Assembly (NCBI RefSeq): GCF_000470315.2
Contig: NZ_CBRF02000001.1
Coordinates: forward strand, 1 to 64,000
DNA length: 64,000 nt
Source: Psychromonas sp. SP041
Lineage (GTDB): Bacteria > Pseudomonadota > Gammaproteobacteria > Enterobacterales > Psychromonadaceae
Direction: 5' to 3'
Part shown: positions 43,328 to 62,023 of the stretch, piece after piece
How the letters are laid out: every line of letters begins with the position of its first letter
How positions within the stretch are numbered: the stretch's first letter is position 1
Notes under the pieces: generated by a model
What the model saw: only the letters and a program-made list of their open reading frames with translations
What the model was told of the DNA's origin: nothing
Databases searched by the model: none
Program-made: the position numbers and the translations under genes

Positions 43328-44989
43328 TTACATAGAAGGAGAAGTTTCATAGTTATTTTGAACTGGCGCTATTTCAGCATGATCCTCTTTTTGGTTTTTA
43401 CGATTCATATCTCGCACTTGAGCAGGAGAGGGCTTTTCAACGCTAGGGTTGTGACAAATGCCCCATCTGAAATTATTGGTCTTGGCTTTCGCATGACCAA
43501 TTTTAATTGAAGACAAAAAGAACGACTTGTTCTGTGGGGTATTCATTTCTTTAGGGATAACATTATCTAAATTGTTAACAATTAAATCCTTTGCAACCTC
43601 AAGCGTTTTATATAGATTTTTGTCGTAAAGCATTTGTGTCGCATGACCATGAATGCAATAAAATACAAATTGGCCAACTGAATTTATATTCATTTTGTCG
43701 CCATTTATTTCGTGCTCTTTATCATAGACTGACTTTACAAACGGGATGAGCTTACCTGTTTTTATGAATTCTTTAATCGAATCGATATTTCTGCCCCTGA
43801 TTACATTTCTTGAGTAATCGACATTATTGTTAAGTCTTATGTCTAGCTTTCTTGCTATTTCATCTTTATCACTAAAACTTGTTATTTCGTTAGGAAAATC
43901 CCAGTCTTCAGTGATTGCAATAACTTCAACTTTAGCAACAATTTCTTTTATGTGAGCTCTTAAATTCGTATAAATAGGCTCGTCACCATAAACAATTTCA
44001 GGTGCGTATTTATTTACAGCGGAGCTAATTATTTCAGGGATTTCCTTTCTGGTATCCCCAGAAGGATCTGTAAGGGGCTTGCTTCCGTATTCAGTAGATG
44101 CTTTATAAATAAACTGAACTACGTTGAAAAAATCCGCTTTAGCTCCCCATTTCCCAACTGCGCTACCACATACTTTTAAAGCAAAATCGTGTCTGTTGTC
44201 ATTGTCAGAAAGAATGGGGATGAATTTTGCGAAAGATTCTTTCATGCCCTCATAAGAGTAATCGATAGTCATACTTTTGGCGTCATGAATATTTCTTTTT
44301 TCGCCAGTAAAGTGAGTTCTTACATTGCTTTTAGGGATTGACGGTGTGTTTTTTTCTCTAAATTCAGCCAATGCTTCAGGACTTAATCCTGACTCATATT
44401 TGCTCCTAATGTTATTGATGTCGTTTACAGATATTTTGTTGCCATCTTGGTGCTTAAAGTATGGAGCTAATCCGGCGTTTGGGCTGTGGCTTGGAAAGTA
44501 GAATACGCGAGATAAATTGCCACAACTTCTATCTGCATCAATTGGAGCGATAAGTGACTTAAAGTAATCCGGCCATTCGCTTCCTGAGATCGGCTCATCT
44601 AATCGAAGCACGATTCTGAACTTGTATGGCTTATCTACAGTATAGCTGTGGGTAGAGTAGATAACATGCTCAAAGTCTTTATAGATTTCTTCTGCTTTTT
44701 CTTTTGAGCCAGGCTCATCCAGGTCAAGAACAACTACTGATATACTTTCAACATTTAAATCGTTTCGGTAAGATGGTTTTTCATCATTATCAGACAAAAC
44801 CCAGTCATCAGGGCTTTTAAACTGTGCAGGAATAAAACAGGCGCCTTCTTTATTGTTTCTGATGTTATGGTTTCTCAAAATATCGACTAAAGAGCCCCAA
44901 GAAACATCCATGAGTCCATTGCTGATATTAATATCATTAACGTCATCAAGAGAGACAAGGCTTAAACTTTCCCCATTTGTACCAAGCAT
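43328..44989 (-). CDS. archaeo-eukaryotic-type (AEP/PrimPol) primase candidate
   Basis: 553 residues. The N-terminal 170 residues carry the phage/plasmid AEP pattern: VVVLDLDEP near 86 (DxD metal site), VIYSTHSYT near 108, YKFRIVLRLDEPI near 121, and DRSCGNLSRVFYFPSH near 150. About 240-320 may be a PriCT-like helical region. The C-terminal third is Asn/Lys-rich. No helicase domain is fused. Such enzymes make primers in replicons that do not rely on DnaG, and dnaB, dnaQ and dnaE lie in the next 10 kb. GGAG precedes the ATG. The assignment rests on motif order. Confidence 0.65.
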   Translation of the reverse strand: MLGTNGESLSLVSLDDVNDINISNGLMDVSWGSLVDILRNHNIRNNKEGACFIPAQFKSPDDWVLSDNDEKPSYRNDLNVESISVVVLDLDEPGSKEKAEEIYKDFEHVIYSTHSYTVDKPYKFRIVLRLDEPISGSEWPDYFKSLIAPIDADRSCGNLSRVFYFPSHSPNAGLAPYFKHQDGNKISVNDINNIRSKYESGLSPEALAEFREKNTPSIPKSNVRTHFTGEKRNIHDAKSMTIDYSYEGMKESFAKFIPILSDNDNRHDFALKVCGSAVGKWGAKADFFNVVQFIYKASTEYGSKPLTDPSGDTRKEIPEIISSAVNKYAPEIVYGDEPIYTNLRAHIKEIVAKVEVIAITEDWDFPNEITSFSDKDEIARKLDIRLNNNVDYSRNVIRGRNIDSIKEFIKTGKLIPFVKSVYDKEHEINGDKMNINSVGQFVFYCIHGHATQMLYDKNLYKTLEVAKDLIVNNLDNVIPKEMNTPQNKSFFLSSIKIGHAKAKTNNFRWGICHNPSVEKPSPAQVRDMNRKNQKEDHAEIAPVQNNYETSPSM

Positions 44990-45069
44990 TTTAAATCTCC
45001 AATTAAAAATATAACTTATTATACTATAAATTGTTTATGTTGCGAATACTTTGAATTACCTTAGTTGGT

Positions 45070-45098
45070 TTGACACTACAATTCAGTTTGGTTATATT
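45070..45098 (+). promoter_or_regulatory. rseP promoter
   Basis: TTGACA (45070-45075) and TATATT (45093-45098) have the ideal 17-bp spacing, 53 bp before the start codon. Confidence 0.7.
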
Positions 45099-60123: not shown

Positions 60124-60136
60124 TTTTGTTCCTTAA

Positions 60137-62023
60137 TTATAATTCATCTCTAACCAACAAGCCGCCTTCAGTCTCAATCCATTCTCGTCTTAAGCTTGCT
60201 GTTTTTTTGCTAAGGAGAATATTCATTTTAAATTCGGCTGCTTCATGATCTAATACTTCAATCTTGAGGAGTCTTCTGCATTCAGGATCCATGACCGTTT
60301 CTCTTAGTTGAGATGGGTTCATTTCACCAAGACCTTTAAACCGTTGGGTATGAATAGTGCCACGCTTCTTGTTTAATTTTTTTAATACTTCCTTTTTCTC
60401 TTTTTCATCTAGTACATAATGTACACTTTTACCCTGATCAATTCGGTAAAGTGGCGGCAAAGCAATATAAAAATGCCCATTATCAATAACTGGTCTAAAG
60501 TGCTTGTAAATAAGCCCACAAATCAAAGTTGCAATATGAAGTCCATCAGAGTCCGCGTCAGCGAGAACACATATTTTCCCATATCTCAATTTCGACAAAT
60601 CATCGGAACCTGGCTCAACACCGATGGCAATAGATAAGTTGCTTATTTCTTCTGATGATAAAATAGTGTCGCCATCAACTTCCCATGTGTTTAAGATTTT
60701 GCCTCGTAGTGGCATGATCGCCTGATAGTTTCTATCTCTTGATTGTTTAGCAGAACCACCAGCAGAATCTCCTTCAACAAGATAGAGTTCAGTTTGGTCT
60801 ATGTCAGAAGAAACACAGTCAGTTAGTTTACCCGGTAAAACAGGGCCAGAACCAATCTTCTTGCGCACTACCTTTTTCTTTTTACCAATTCTTGCTGACG
60901 CTCTGGAAATGACCATTTCTGCTATCGCAGTAGCAACATCGACATTCGAGTGAAAGTAGGTATCTAAATAATCTTTAATTGAGCTAGAAAGGTCTTGAGA
61001 AAAGTCTCTGTTTACTAGTTTTTCTTTGGTTTGACCTGCAAAACTAGGCTCTTTAATCTTCAAAGAAATAATGTAATGGCAACGATCAAATGCATCATCT
61101 GCAGTAATTGTCATTTTTTGCTTCATCAAATTATGATGCTCAATAAAATCTCTAATGGAAGCAACAGCCGCCGATTTAATTGATGCTACGTGAGTACCGC
61201 CCAAAGGAGTTGGAATTAAGTTTACATAACTTTCATTGATAATATTTTCCGAGTCGGCAGACCAAGCAAGAGCAAGACTTGCTTTACATGTAGCGGTATC
61301 CGCAATCGCGATAATAGGTTTATTATCTGGTAGTGTTTCAAGTCCATTCATGTGGCCTATCATGTAATCTTCAAGACCATTTTCATATTTCCATTCAACA
61401 GTCGTGCCTTTTACATCATCGTTAAATACGACCAATAAGCCTGGGCACAACACTGCCTTGCTTTTAAGTAGTTTTTCTAGCTTTGATGAAGAAAATTTTG
61501 GTGTATCAAAGTACTTTGGATCTGGAGAAAATTTAACCTTGCTGCCGGAGTCTTTACTTTTAATGTTTCTTGAACTTAATTTATCATGAACGTCACCATT
61601 TTCGAATGCAATATGATGCTCTTGACCTAGTCGTTTAACCCAAACATCTACTCGTGTTGATAGGGCGTTTACGACAGAGATGCCAACGCCATGTAGGCCA
61701 CCAGAATGTTCATAATTCTTCCCGCTAAACTTACCGCCAGAATGTAAAACAGTGAACAACACTTCAATAGCTGGGATATTCATTTCTTTGTGAATATCCA
61801 CAGGAATACCACGACCATTGTCTTCAACTTCTAATGACTGATCTTTGTTTAGGGTTACAGTTATTTTATTGGCGTGTCCTGCTAATGCTTCATCTACCGC
61901 ATTATCGATAACCTCTTGCCCCAAGTGATTTGGTTTATCTGTTTCAGTATACATTCCAGGTCTTTTCTTTACTGGATCTAAACCACTTAGTACTTCAATT
62001 GATGATGAGTCATAGTTGCTCAT
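60137..62023 (-). CDS. parE: topoisomerase IV subunit B
   Basis: 628 residues (E. coli 630). GHKL ATPase motifs: [14 protein letters not shown] near 38, EDNGRGIP near 66, and [14 protein letters not shown] near 108. The TOPRIM domain has [17 protein letters not shown] near 418 and [10 protein letters not shown] near 492. The typical ParE C-terminus [13 protein letters not shown], then [13 protein letters not shown] near 565 is present. All catalytic residues are present, so it should be active. AGGAAG precedes the ATG. It heads the parE-parC-erpA operon. Confidence 0.95.

Follow-up and report, generated by a model that had tools for sequence, protein, structure and literature searches.

A Psychromonas replicon related to the megaplasmid pMPPla107 carries its own polymerase III core and replicative helicase and probably relies on the sliding clamp of its host

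One survey gives only 3% of C-family DNA polymerases as plasmid-borne, most of them (around two thirds) DnaE2 (PMC3919608). The megaplasmid pMPPla107 of Pseudomonas amygdali (972 kb) has already been reported to carry polymerase subunits and topoisomerase IV (PMC4105467, PMC8544880), with parC and parE noted in the second of these reports, and its housekeeping pathways have been described as seemingly incomplete and likely to need chromosomal partners (PMC4105467). Here we describe a relative in Psychromonas sp. SP041, part of which lies in a 64,000 nt stretch (the window) that comprises bases 1-64000 of contig NZ_CBRF02000001.1 (C1; 288,524 bp), the largest of 121 contigs in a 4.80 Mb genome with a completeness of 100% and a contamination of 2.14%. 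The original prediction for the window was of a plasmid that brings nearly its own replisome and would form a distinct replication class between jumbo phage and chromid; given the published accounts of pMPPla107, it is not a wholly new kind. C1 and a second contig, C13 (118,223 bp), together appear to be a divergent and smaller member of a known, little-studied superfamily of megaplasmids that includes pMPPla107, with which they have in common a neighbourhood of dnaQ and dnaB beside a divergent dnaE, a shared DnaE clade and conjugation/pilus genes of type MPF_I.

Families were assigned by profile searches against Pfam, NCBIfam and PHROG with family cut-offs, and at the centre of the neighbourhood these gave DnaQ, the epsilon subunit (49228..50022, minus strand; PRK05711 211.9 bits against a cut-off of 196, and TIGR01406 201.7 bits, under its cut-off of 222.7), the replicative helicase DnaB (50086..51657, minus strand; Pfam DnaB_C 1.7e-86, and TIGR00665 364 bits, slightly under its cut-off of 385) and an alpha subunit of DnaE1 type (51640..55383, plus strand; PRK05673 1336 bits, cut-off 1002). 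Four C1 proteins (DnaE, ParC, RecJ and one of the radical SAM family) used as tblastn queries led to eight plasmid records of 0.88-1.17 Mb, four from Pseudomonas and four from Vibrio, with not all queries hitting all eight; the eight best matches of RecJ in the plasmid collection are likewise four Pseudomonas and four Vibrio megaplasmids. Six plasmids of 0.9-1.2 Mb were examined, these being pMPPla107, pBASL58 (Pseudomonas sp. Leaf58, 904 kb), FeN3W, P. silesiensis pPL1 and the plasmids of V. parahaemolyticus BM8A (CP099927, 939 kb) and V. vulnificus FORC_036 (NZ_CP015514, 925 kb); the BM8A record is given as linear and the other five as circular. In all five annotated relatives dnaQ, dnaB and a divergent dnaE are adjacent, and searching pPL1 placed the three close together, so that all six megaplasmids carry the dnaQ-dnaB/dnaE module.

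As well as the module itself, pMPPla107 and pBASL58 share with C1 the neighbours RecD2, RecJ, a DsbC-like protein, a RecG-like protein, a topoisomerase and UvrD, with ErpA seen on pMPPla107 and RecQ on pBASL58, and they likewise type as MPF_I, carry topoisomerase IV and LigA, and have no DnaN and no DnaX above cut-off. The C1 replicon differs from both in its size, which is ~0.4 Mb and not 0.9-1 Mb, in a DnaE that is 48-51% identical to theirs, in being without DnaG and in having its topoisomerase IV genes beside the dnaE module, whereas theirs are near 287-333 kb; moreover, C1 and C13 yielded three tRNA genes, compared with the 38 reported for pMPPla107 (PMC4105467). The Vibrio plasmids are twice the size of the C1 replicon, have the nearest DnaE and are also without DnaG, DnaN and DnaX above cut-off. 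Positions 88-236 kb of the BM8A plasmid are largely colinear with C13 69-98 kb and C1 5.7-167 kb, the exceptions being a radical SAM block (C1 102-114 kb) in inverted order and a number of insertions; the same part of C1 is partly colinear with the fetched pieces of pMPPla107. The genes dnaE, dnaB and dnaQ are near-identical on CP099927 and NZ_CP015514, which come from two Vibrio species, and this suggests recent interspecies transfer.

On the evidence of matching ends and DNA signature, C1 and C13 appear to be a single replicon of about 407 kb. The right end of C1 falls inside a gene for single-stranded DNA-binding protein (SSB) that carries a glutamine-rich repeat, and C13 starts with the same repeat and an apparent SSB gene end. 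A palindromic repeat (core TTGTCGGAAC-CCGACACTATTT, mostly at ~76 bp spacing) closes the right end of C13 with 12 copies and, counted with one pattern, has 20 copies in the left 2.1 kb of C1 and none in 1.22 Mb of other contigs; the two arrays may overlap. A tetranucleotide score trained on C1 and 14 stretches of other contigs was applied to the 56 largest contigs at 20 kb each (40 kb for C10), the 65 smaller contigs being outside it; all four C13 stretches tested grouped with C1 and none of 54 other contigs did so, C27 being intermediate with a score of 0.04. The GC content of C1 and C13 is the same as that of the chromosome, their tetranucleotide signature being distinct from the other contigs sampled. 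The colinear part of C13 matches the portion of the Vibrio plasmid that precedes the portion matched by C1, and the detrended GC skew of the joined contigs reaches its lowest point at the C13/C1 junction, beside the ParA/ParB genes and iterons described below. The computed circle would close across the two repeats, that of the SSB gene and that of the palindrome array.

It is very improbable that C1 and C13 come from the chromosome of another organism and were binned here in error. Both the tetranucleotide signature and the level of contamination would fit such an origin; against it, the nearest relatives are plasmid entries, with five of the six examined listed as circular, and the two contigs have partition, conjugation and iteron features with only three tRNAs found. 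They look like an extrachromosomal accessory replicon and not like a chromosome. Separate host copies exist of DnaE (C10, 48% identity), DnaB (C3, 39%), ParC (C61, 46%) and LigA (C9), in addition to GyrA on C2, so that the accessory replicon holds second copies of these genes, as had been predicted. A chromid would hold sole copies of core genes, which is not the case for DnaE, DnaB, ParC and LigA, and would be present throughout its genus, while a radical SAM marker from C1 was found in one of 394 genomes sampled from the host order, the host itself, and was not found in any of the 20 genomes listed for the genus.

Trees of DnaE were built from 43 rows (with 29 of 40 chromosomal matches), from 29 rows (with seven of those 29) and from 27 rows, the last without the two plasmids of the alpha lineage, pRlX5 of Rhizobium leguminosarum (1.32 Mb) and contig 1 of Thalassospira xianhensis (423 kb). 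The seven gamma plasmid DnaEs are monophyletic, with Shimodaira-Hasegawa-like approximate likelihood ratio (SH-aLRT) support of 99 in the 43-row tree and 100 in the 29-row tree; with 27 rows the clade has ultrafast bootstrap (UFBoot) and SH-aLRT values of 100 and is present in 100% of 200 bootstrap trees. The DnaE of C1 joins the Vibrio pair (94/94, 27 rows) and its placement with the host genus is rejected by the approximately unbiased (AU) test (p 0.0006). The two alpha plasmid DnaEs form their own clade (100, 29 rows) and a single clade for all nine plasmid DnaEs is rejected (AU p 3e-5). It had been suggested that DnaE, DnaB, ParC and ParE might form plasmid-only clades; DnaE does so, DnaB and ParC do not with support, and the ParCs of the Pseudomonas plasmids lie beside Pseudomonas chromosomal ParC (SH-aLRT 81). 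Because the DnaE clade differs in this way from the ParC, DnaB and LigA trees, we regard the polymerase as the marker of the lineage and topoisomerase IV as looking like a later or repeated gain.

Three other sources of plasmid-like DnaE were considered and set aside. A jumbo-phage origin was rejected, with at most 46.5% identity in the phage collection and the best matches being to a Salmonella-labelled contig and to an unverified record, 'phage Y1', the DnaE of which places with Pseudomonas chromosomes. The DnaE on a 647-kb Catenovulum plasmid sits in an lpx-rnhB-dnaE-accA context, which was taken as a chromosomal block and a different case, and the DnaE of a Sulfurovum plasmid has no such module with it over the 19 kb covered.

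Purifying selection on the copies carried by the Vibrio plasmids is strong. For V. parahaemolyticus against V. vulnificus the ratio of non-synonymous to synonymous rates (dN/dS) is 0.028 for dnaE (19 synonymous and 2 non-synonymous changes), 0.044 for dnaB (12 and 2) and 0 for dnaQ (6 and 0); the comparison of pMPPla107 with pBASL58, which is near saturation, gives 0.085 for dnaE, 0.173 for dnaB and 0.129 for parC, with no usable value for dnaQ. Relaxed selection, which would have counted against the original prediction, is thus not seen in the relatives on which it was measured.

The clamp and its loader are missing from this otherwise extensive set. Profile searches found no DnaN on C1 or C13 or on any of the six relatives, and no DnaX above cut-off on any of them, with weak matches far below the cut-off in all six relatives; the sole DnaN of the genome is on C16, its sole DnaG on C6 and its only DnaX match above cut-off on C23. 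DnaG is present on the four Pseudomonas relatives and absent from both Vibrio plasmids, C1 and C13, and LigA is above cut-off in six of seven named records (pRlX5 included), the copy on pBASL58 being split over two frames. LigA is the only one of these four on C1/C13, where DnaX is judged by its cut-off; in the control genomes as well as in the host, all four models do give matches. Since neither DnaN nor DnaX above cut-off is found on the replicon or the six relatives, the fork is not self-contained, in contrast to a complete autonomous replisome with its own sliding clamp and clamp loader. Of the predicted near-complete replisome, what remains includes a polymerase core, a helicase, a probable primase, LigA, SSB, topoisomerase IV and DNA polymerase I (Pol I).

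The polymerase itself may work with a clamp from elsewhere. The three catalytic aspartates are kept in an alignment of nine plasmid DnaEs, and the plasmid DnaQs keep the exonuclease motifs and a tail like the alpha-binding segment, by the roles that these residues have in E. coli; the catalytic residues that were predicted to be intact are so at residue level in both proteins. All nine DnaEs have a glutamine-led motif (QMGMF in C1; QLSLL, QGMLF, QGSLF and QTDLF in others) that resembles a clamp-binding motif, at the place where E. coli has QADMF. The gamma plasmid DnaEs, that of C1 included, and an Acinetobacter row also have a C-terminal tail that runs past the end of most chromosomal DnaEs, near the tau-binding region. 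As DnaE keeps its clamp-binding motif while DnaN and DnaX above cut-off are absent, a hybrid fork is the most likely arrangement, and we think it probable that this is a circular, probably conjugative plasmid of ~407 kb which would use its own polymerase III core and helicase on the clamp and clamp loader of its host. The incomplete housekeeping pathways described for pMPPla107 fit such a model (PMC4105467).

Replication by this hybrid fork would begin at 6.8-10 kb of C1, where an initiator would open the origin at the iterons. The iteron cluster (6821..8618, plus strand; unit TTTGTGCNNNTTAGGTACTA, often at 42-43 bp spacing) is the candidate origin and has 21 matches against 0.25 expected, 19 of them on the plus strand and two on the minus. 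The candidate initiator (8771..10018, plus strand) was named solely from its position beside the iterons and has no match in Pfam, PHROG or NCBIfam, so that the iterons of the original prediction stand and its initiator is without a family. Plasmid DnaB would then be put in place by a plasmid loader, the doubtful candidate for which (14345..15235, plus strand) matches no profile itself, and tblastn against the Vibrio plasmid gave nothing significant for it; its positional counterpart on that plasmid, with 22% identity when the alignment is forced, weakly matches a 'P-like helicase loader' (E 0.0027).

Priming would be carried out by a plasmid primase of AEP type, with DnaG as an addition in the Pseudomonas members. 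The candidate (43328..44989, minus strand) matches PHROG 'DNA primase' families (best 1.4e-11) and has no Pfam or NCBIfam match, and Pfam searches with six family members yield nothing useful. Residues D-x-D and S-T-H, which fit AEP motifs, are invariant in six aligned sequences (two of them near-identical). Homologues are present on both Vibrio plasmids and three Pseudomonas plasmids, pPL1 being outside the comparison, and none was found in the fetched stretches of pRlX5 and Thalassospira. A PDB profile search with the family gave two matches only, to designed proteins at E 0.6, which were taken as chance.

Both strands would be copied by the plasmid alpha-epsilon core, while the beta clamp that holds it on the DNA and the DnaX clamp loader would come from the host; plasmid SSB, Pol I, LigA and topoisomerase IV would serve the lagging strand and decatenation. 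The supply of deoxynucleoside triphosphates would be aided by NrdA/NrdB and Tmk. LigA, SSB, Pol I and NrdB are all encoded on the replicon outside the window, there being two Pol I genes, one without a match to the N-terminal 5'-3' exonuclease domain. After replication the plasmid would probably be partitioned from its left end, where the palindromic array (1..2150, plus strand; 21 matches with three or fewer mismatches against 0.00 expected) is probably the centromere for the adjacent ParA (2388..3182, plus strand; Pfam AAA_31 2.2e-20) and a ParB-like protein (3201..4286, plus strand; TIGR00180 53.6 bits, slightly below a cut-off of 58.45). We infer that the plasmid replisome proteins copy this plasmid, with the initiator, loader and primase in the putative roles given here.

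The replicon also encodes homologues of the DotA/TraY, DotC, DotD, DotG, DotH and DotI proteins of the Vibrio plasmid as well as pilus proteins (MPF_I, Dot/Icm-like), and is predicted to transfer as what is probably a conjugative plasmid. An unlikely alternative is that the polymerase, helicase, primase, SSB and ligase of the plasmid do most of their work immediately after conjugation has brought it into a cell, in complementary strand synthesis and repair, which would free transfer from a dependence on compatible host proteins and leave steady-state replication to the host fork. Conjugation genes (Dot/Tra homologues and pilus) in the shared backbone are consistent with this, as are the report that pMPPla107 is self-transmissible (PMC4105467) and the near-identical plasmids in two Vibrio species, which fit recent transfer. 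However, topoisomerase IV, NrdA/NrdB and a proofreading core exceed what completion of a strand would need, and DnaB with a candidate loader points to the firing of an origin.

The topoisomerase IV genes bear on another alternative. ParC (57910..60123, minus strand; TIGR01062 838 bits, cut-off 629) and ParE (60137..62023, minus strand; TIGR01055 824 bits, cut-off 723) lie close to an ErpA-like gene (57517..57891, minus strand; NCBIfam 146.7 bits, cut-off 117) that adjoins the module on several relatives, and genes for RseP, DsbC-like, ErpA-like, ClpX, SecA and Mfd proteins are part of the same wider set. Such a set might have been gained piecemeal on the way to becoming a chromid, so that the genes would be spare copies acting as a backup or an extra dose for chromosomal replication and repair; the position of the Pseudomonas plasmid ParC beside its chromosomal counterpart agrees with this, and separate captures are compatible with the AU tests. 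We nevertheless hold it to be improbable, because the dnaQ-dnaB/dnaE order and one DnaE clade have been kept across Vibrio, Pseudomonas and this host, the marker occurs in a single genome among 394 of the order, and the Vibrio copies are under purifying selection.

A number of results weigh against the hybrid fork and the lineage on which it is built. The AU test does not reject the joining of C1 DnaE to the host order (p 0.133) or of the four Pseudomonas plasmid DnaEs to Pseudomonas chromosomes (p 0.136), the plasmid group in the DnaB tree has support of 45/14 and long branches, the ParC of C1 has no clear place in its tree, and the placement of its LigA in a nine-row tree, from which the two-frame LigA of Leaf58 was left out, is unsupported. 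No ParC was found on CP099927 at an E limit of 1e-30 and no DnaB on pRlX5 at 1e-10. The assignments of primase and loader depend on weak profile matches, and a single-sequence structure prediction for the primase had a mean predicted local distance difference test score (pLDDT) of 35 and was not used. Finally, no close relative of C1 was found, and selection on its own genes was judged by their intact state only.

The remaining predicted genes of the window were for the most part recovered. DnaQ, DnaB, DnaE, ParC and ParE, described above, have profile matches, as do Tmk (28903..29613, minus strand; TIGR00041 157 bits, cut-off 83), RecQ (29567..31711, minus strand; Pfam DEAD, RQC and HRDC), RecD2 (33328..35562, minus strand; Pfam HHH_RecD2 and RecD-like SH3), the class Ia alpha chain NrdA (36271..38583, plus strand; PRK09103 1399 bits, cut-off 813), whose small chain NrdB lies at C1 244776-245921 (Ribonuc_red_sm 1.8e-45), and RecJ (38726..40819, plus strand; Pfam). 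The predicted exonuclease is of RecE/YqaJ type (12007..13503, minus strand; Pfam YqaJ 27.1 bits, cut-off 22; PHROG 434 2.4e-11). For three others the family matched with a qualification, the primase having its match in PHROG only and RecG and RdgC falling below cut-off: the RecG-like helicase (62586..64000, plus strand, continuing to C1 64826) has NCBIfam RecG as its best match at 207.6 bits over the first 471 amino acids (cut-off 711), and the RdgC-like protein (16469..17437, plus strand) scores 141 bits against NCBIfam RdgC (cut-off 227). A secretin, an ATPase and an inner-membrane protein at 18202..27317 (plus strand; Pfam) resemble a type II secretion/type IV pilus-like machine and are colinear with the Vibrio plasmid by tblastn.

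Elsewhere the replicon encodes topoisomerase III-like and topoisomerase I-like proteins, UvrD, ClpX and SbcB, and on C13 there are LigA, a UmuC-like polymerase and homologues of Mfd and SecA. Genes for NAPRTase and NAD synthase (C1 279812-283196) are found on the same replicon as this NAD-dependent ligase. Two diverged sigma-70-like proteins are encoded in the window (15237-16115 and 56323-57456), one with an RpoH-like match and one with a weak RpoS-like match of ~50 amino acids; the second has homologues beside dnaE on three relatives. Within the conjugation region is a 1272 amino acid adenylation protein like those of non-ribosomal peptide synthetases (C1 149879-153697) for which the compared stretches of relatives have no equivalent, and an EptA-type phosphoethanolamine-lipid A transferase (C1 275793-277505) scores under the cut-off of each MCR model listed.

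Parts of the backbone extend beyond the plasmids that carry the module. A radical SAM/SPASM battery near the pilus genes (C1 102440-111884) is among the best conserved of the proteins of the gamma members, with up to 63% identity, and is also found in Rhizobium, Thalassospira, pQBR57 and many ~400-kb Pseudomonas plasmids. As on C1, it lies beside pilus genes in pQBR57 and in the IncP-2/pBT2436 megaplasmids, and a radical SAM cluster has been noted as conserved synteny, of unclear meaning, in the pBT2436-like and pQBR plasmids (PMC7070040); unlike C1, pQBR57 has no DnaE that we could find. Both pRlX5 and contig 1 of Thalassospira have homologues of the battery and of the pilus and Dot/Icm genes, and also carry DnaE, DnaQ, UvrD, NrdA and a type IIA topoisomerase, of which the subunit groups with GyrA and not ParC, and their DnaE is in a separate clade; T. 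xianhensis has another DnaE on a different contig.

One radical SAM marker (A1) had no relative in scans of genome contigs or of viral contigs (IMG/VR), and a second (A2) had none in the viral contigs. Among the best 80 of 160 relatives of A2 in genome contigs, the first four alone are near full length, at 45-48% identity; the other 76 loci (at most 41% identity, many of them short and near the cysteine motif) were taken as outside the family and not individually inspected. Of these four genomes Thalassospira alone has an extra full-length DnaE on the contig of the marker, the two contigs being equated by length; a single DnaE is found in P. oleovorans, a full-length and a shorter one (a frame of 1034 amino acids) in Pseudomonas sp. 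ZH-FAD, and one full-length and two partial matches in an Oceanospirillaceae metagenome-assembled genome. Beta-proteobacterial plasmids of Caballeronia (NZ_CP084275, 425 kb) and Variovorax (NZ_LR594690, 816 kb) carry ParC and LigA and are a possible further branch.

Judged by its genes, the conserved core of the superfamily includes a clamp-less replisome, which we infer to be used in replication. No description of such a plasmid replisome was found in the literature covered, Genome Biol. Evol. 2019 evz066, a comparison of the Pseudomonas family, being outside that coverage and possibly describing part of it. We tentatively suggest, as a possibility that falls somewhat short of an even chance, that these conjugative megaplasmids represent a replication class in which a fork that is inherited and partly orthogonal (polymerase III core, helicase, primase and ligase) works on a clamp and loader supplied by the host; it would have been captured at least twice, in the gamma and alpha lineages, and have spread over Vibrio, Pseudomonas, this host, Rhizobium and Thalassospira. 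A DnaE1-type core and helicase on plasmids that leave the clamp to the host would tell which parts of a fork are swappable and which are not, and a natural cell with two replisomes would allow interface specificity, mutation rate and fork speed to be compared replicon by replicon.

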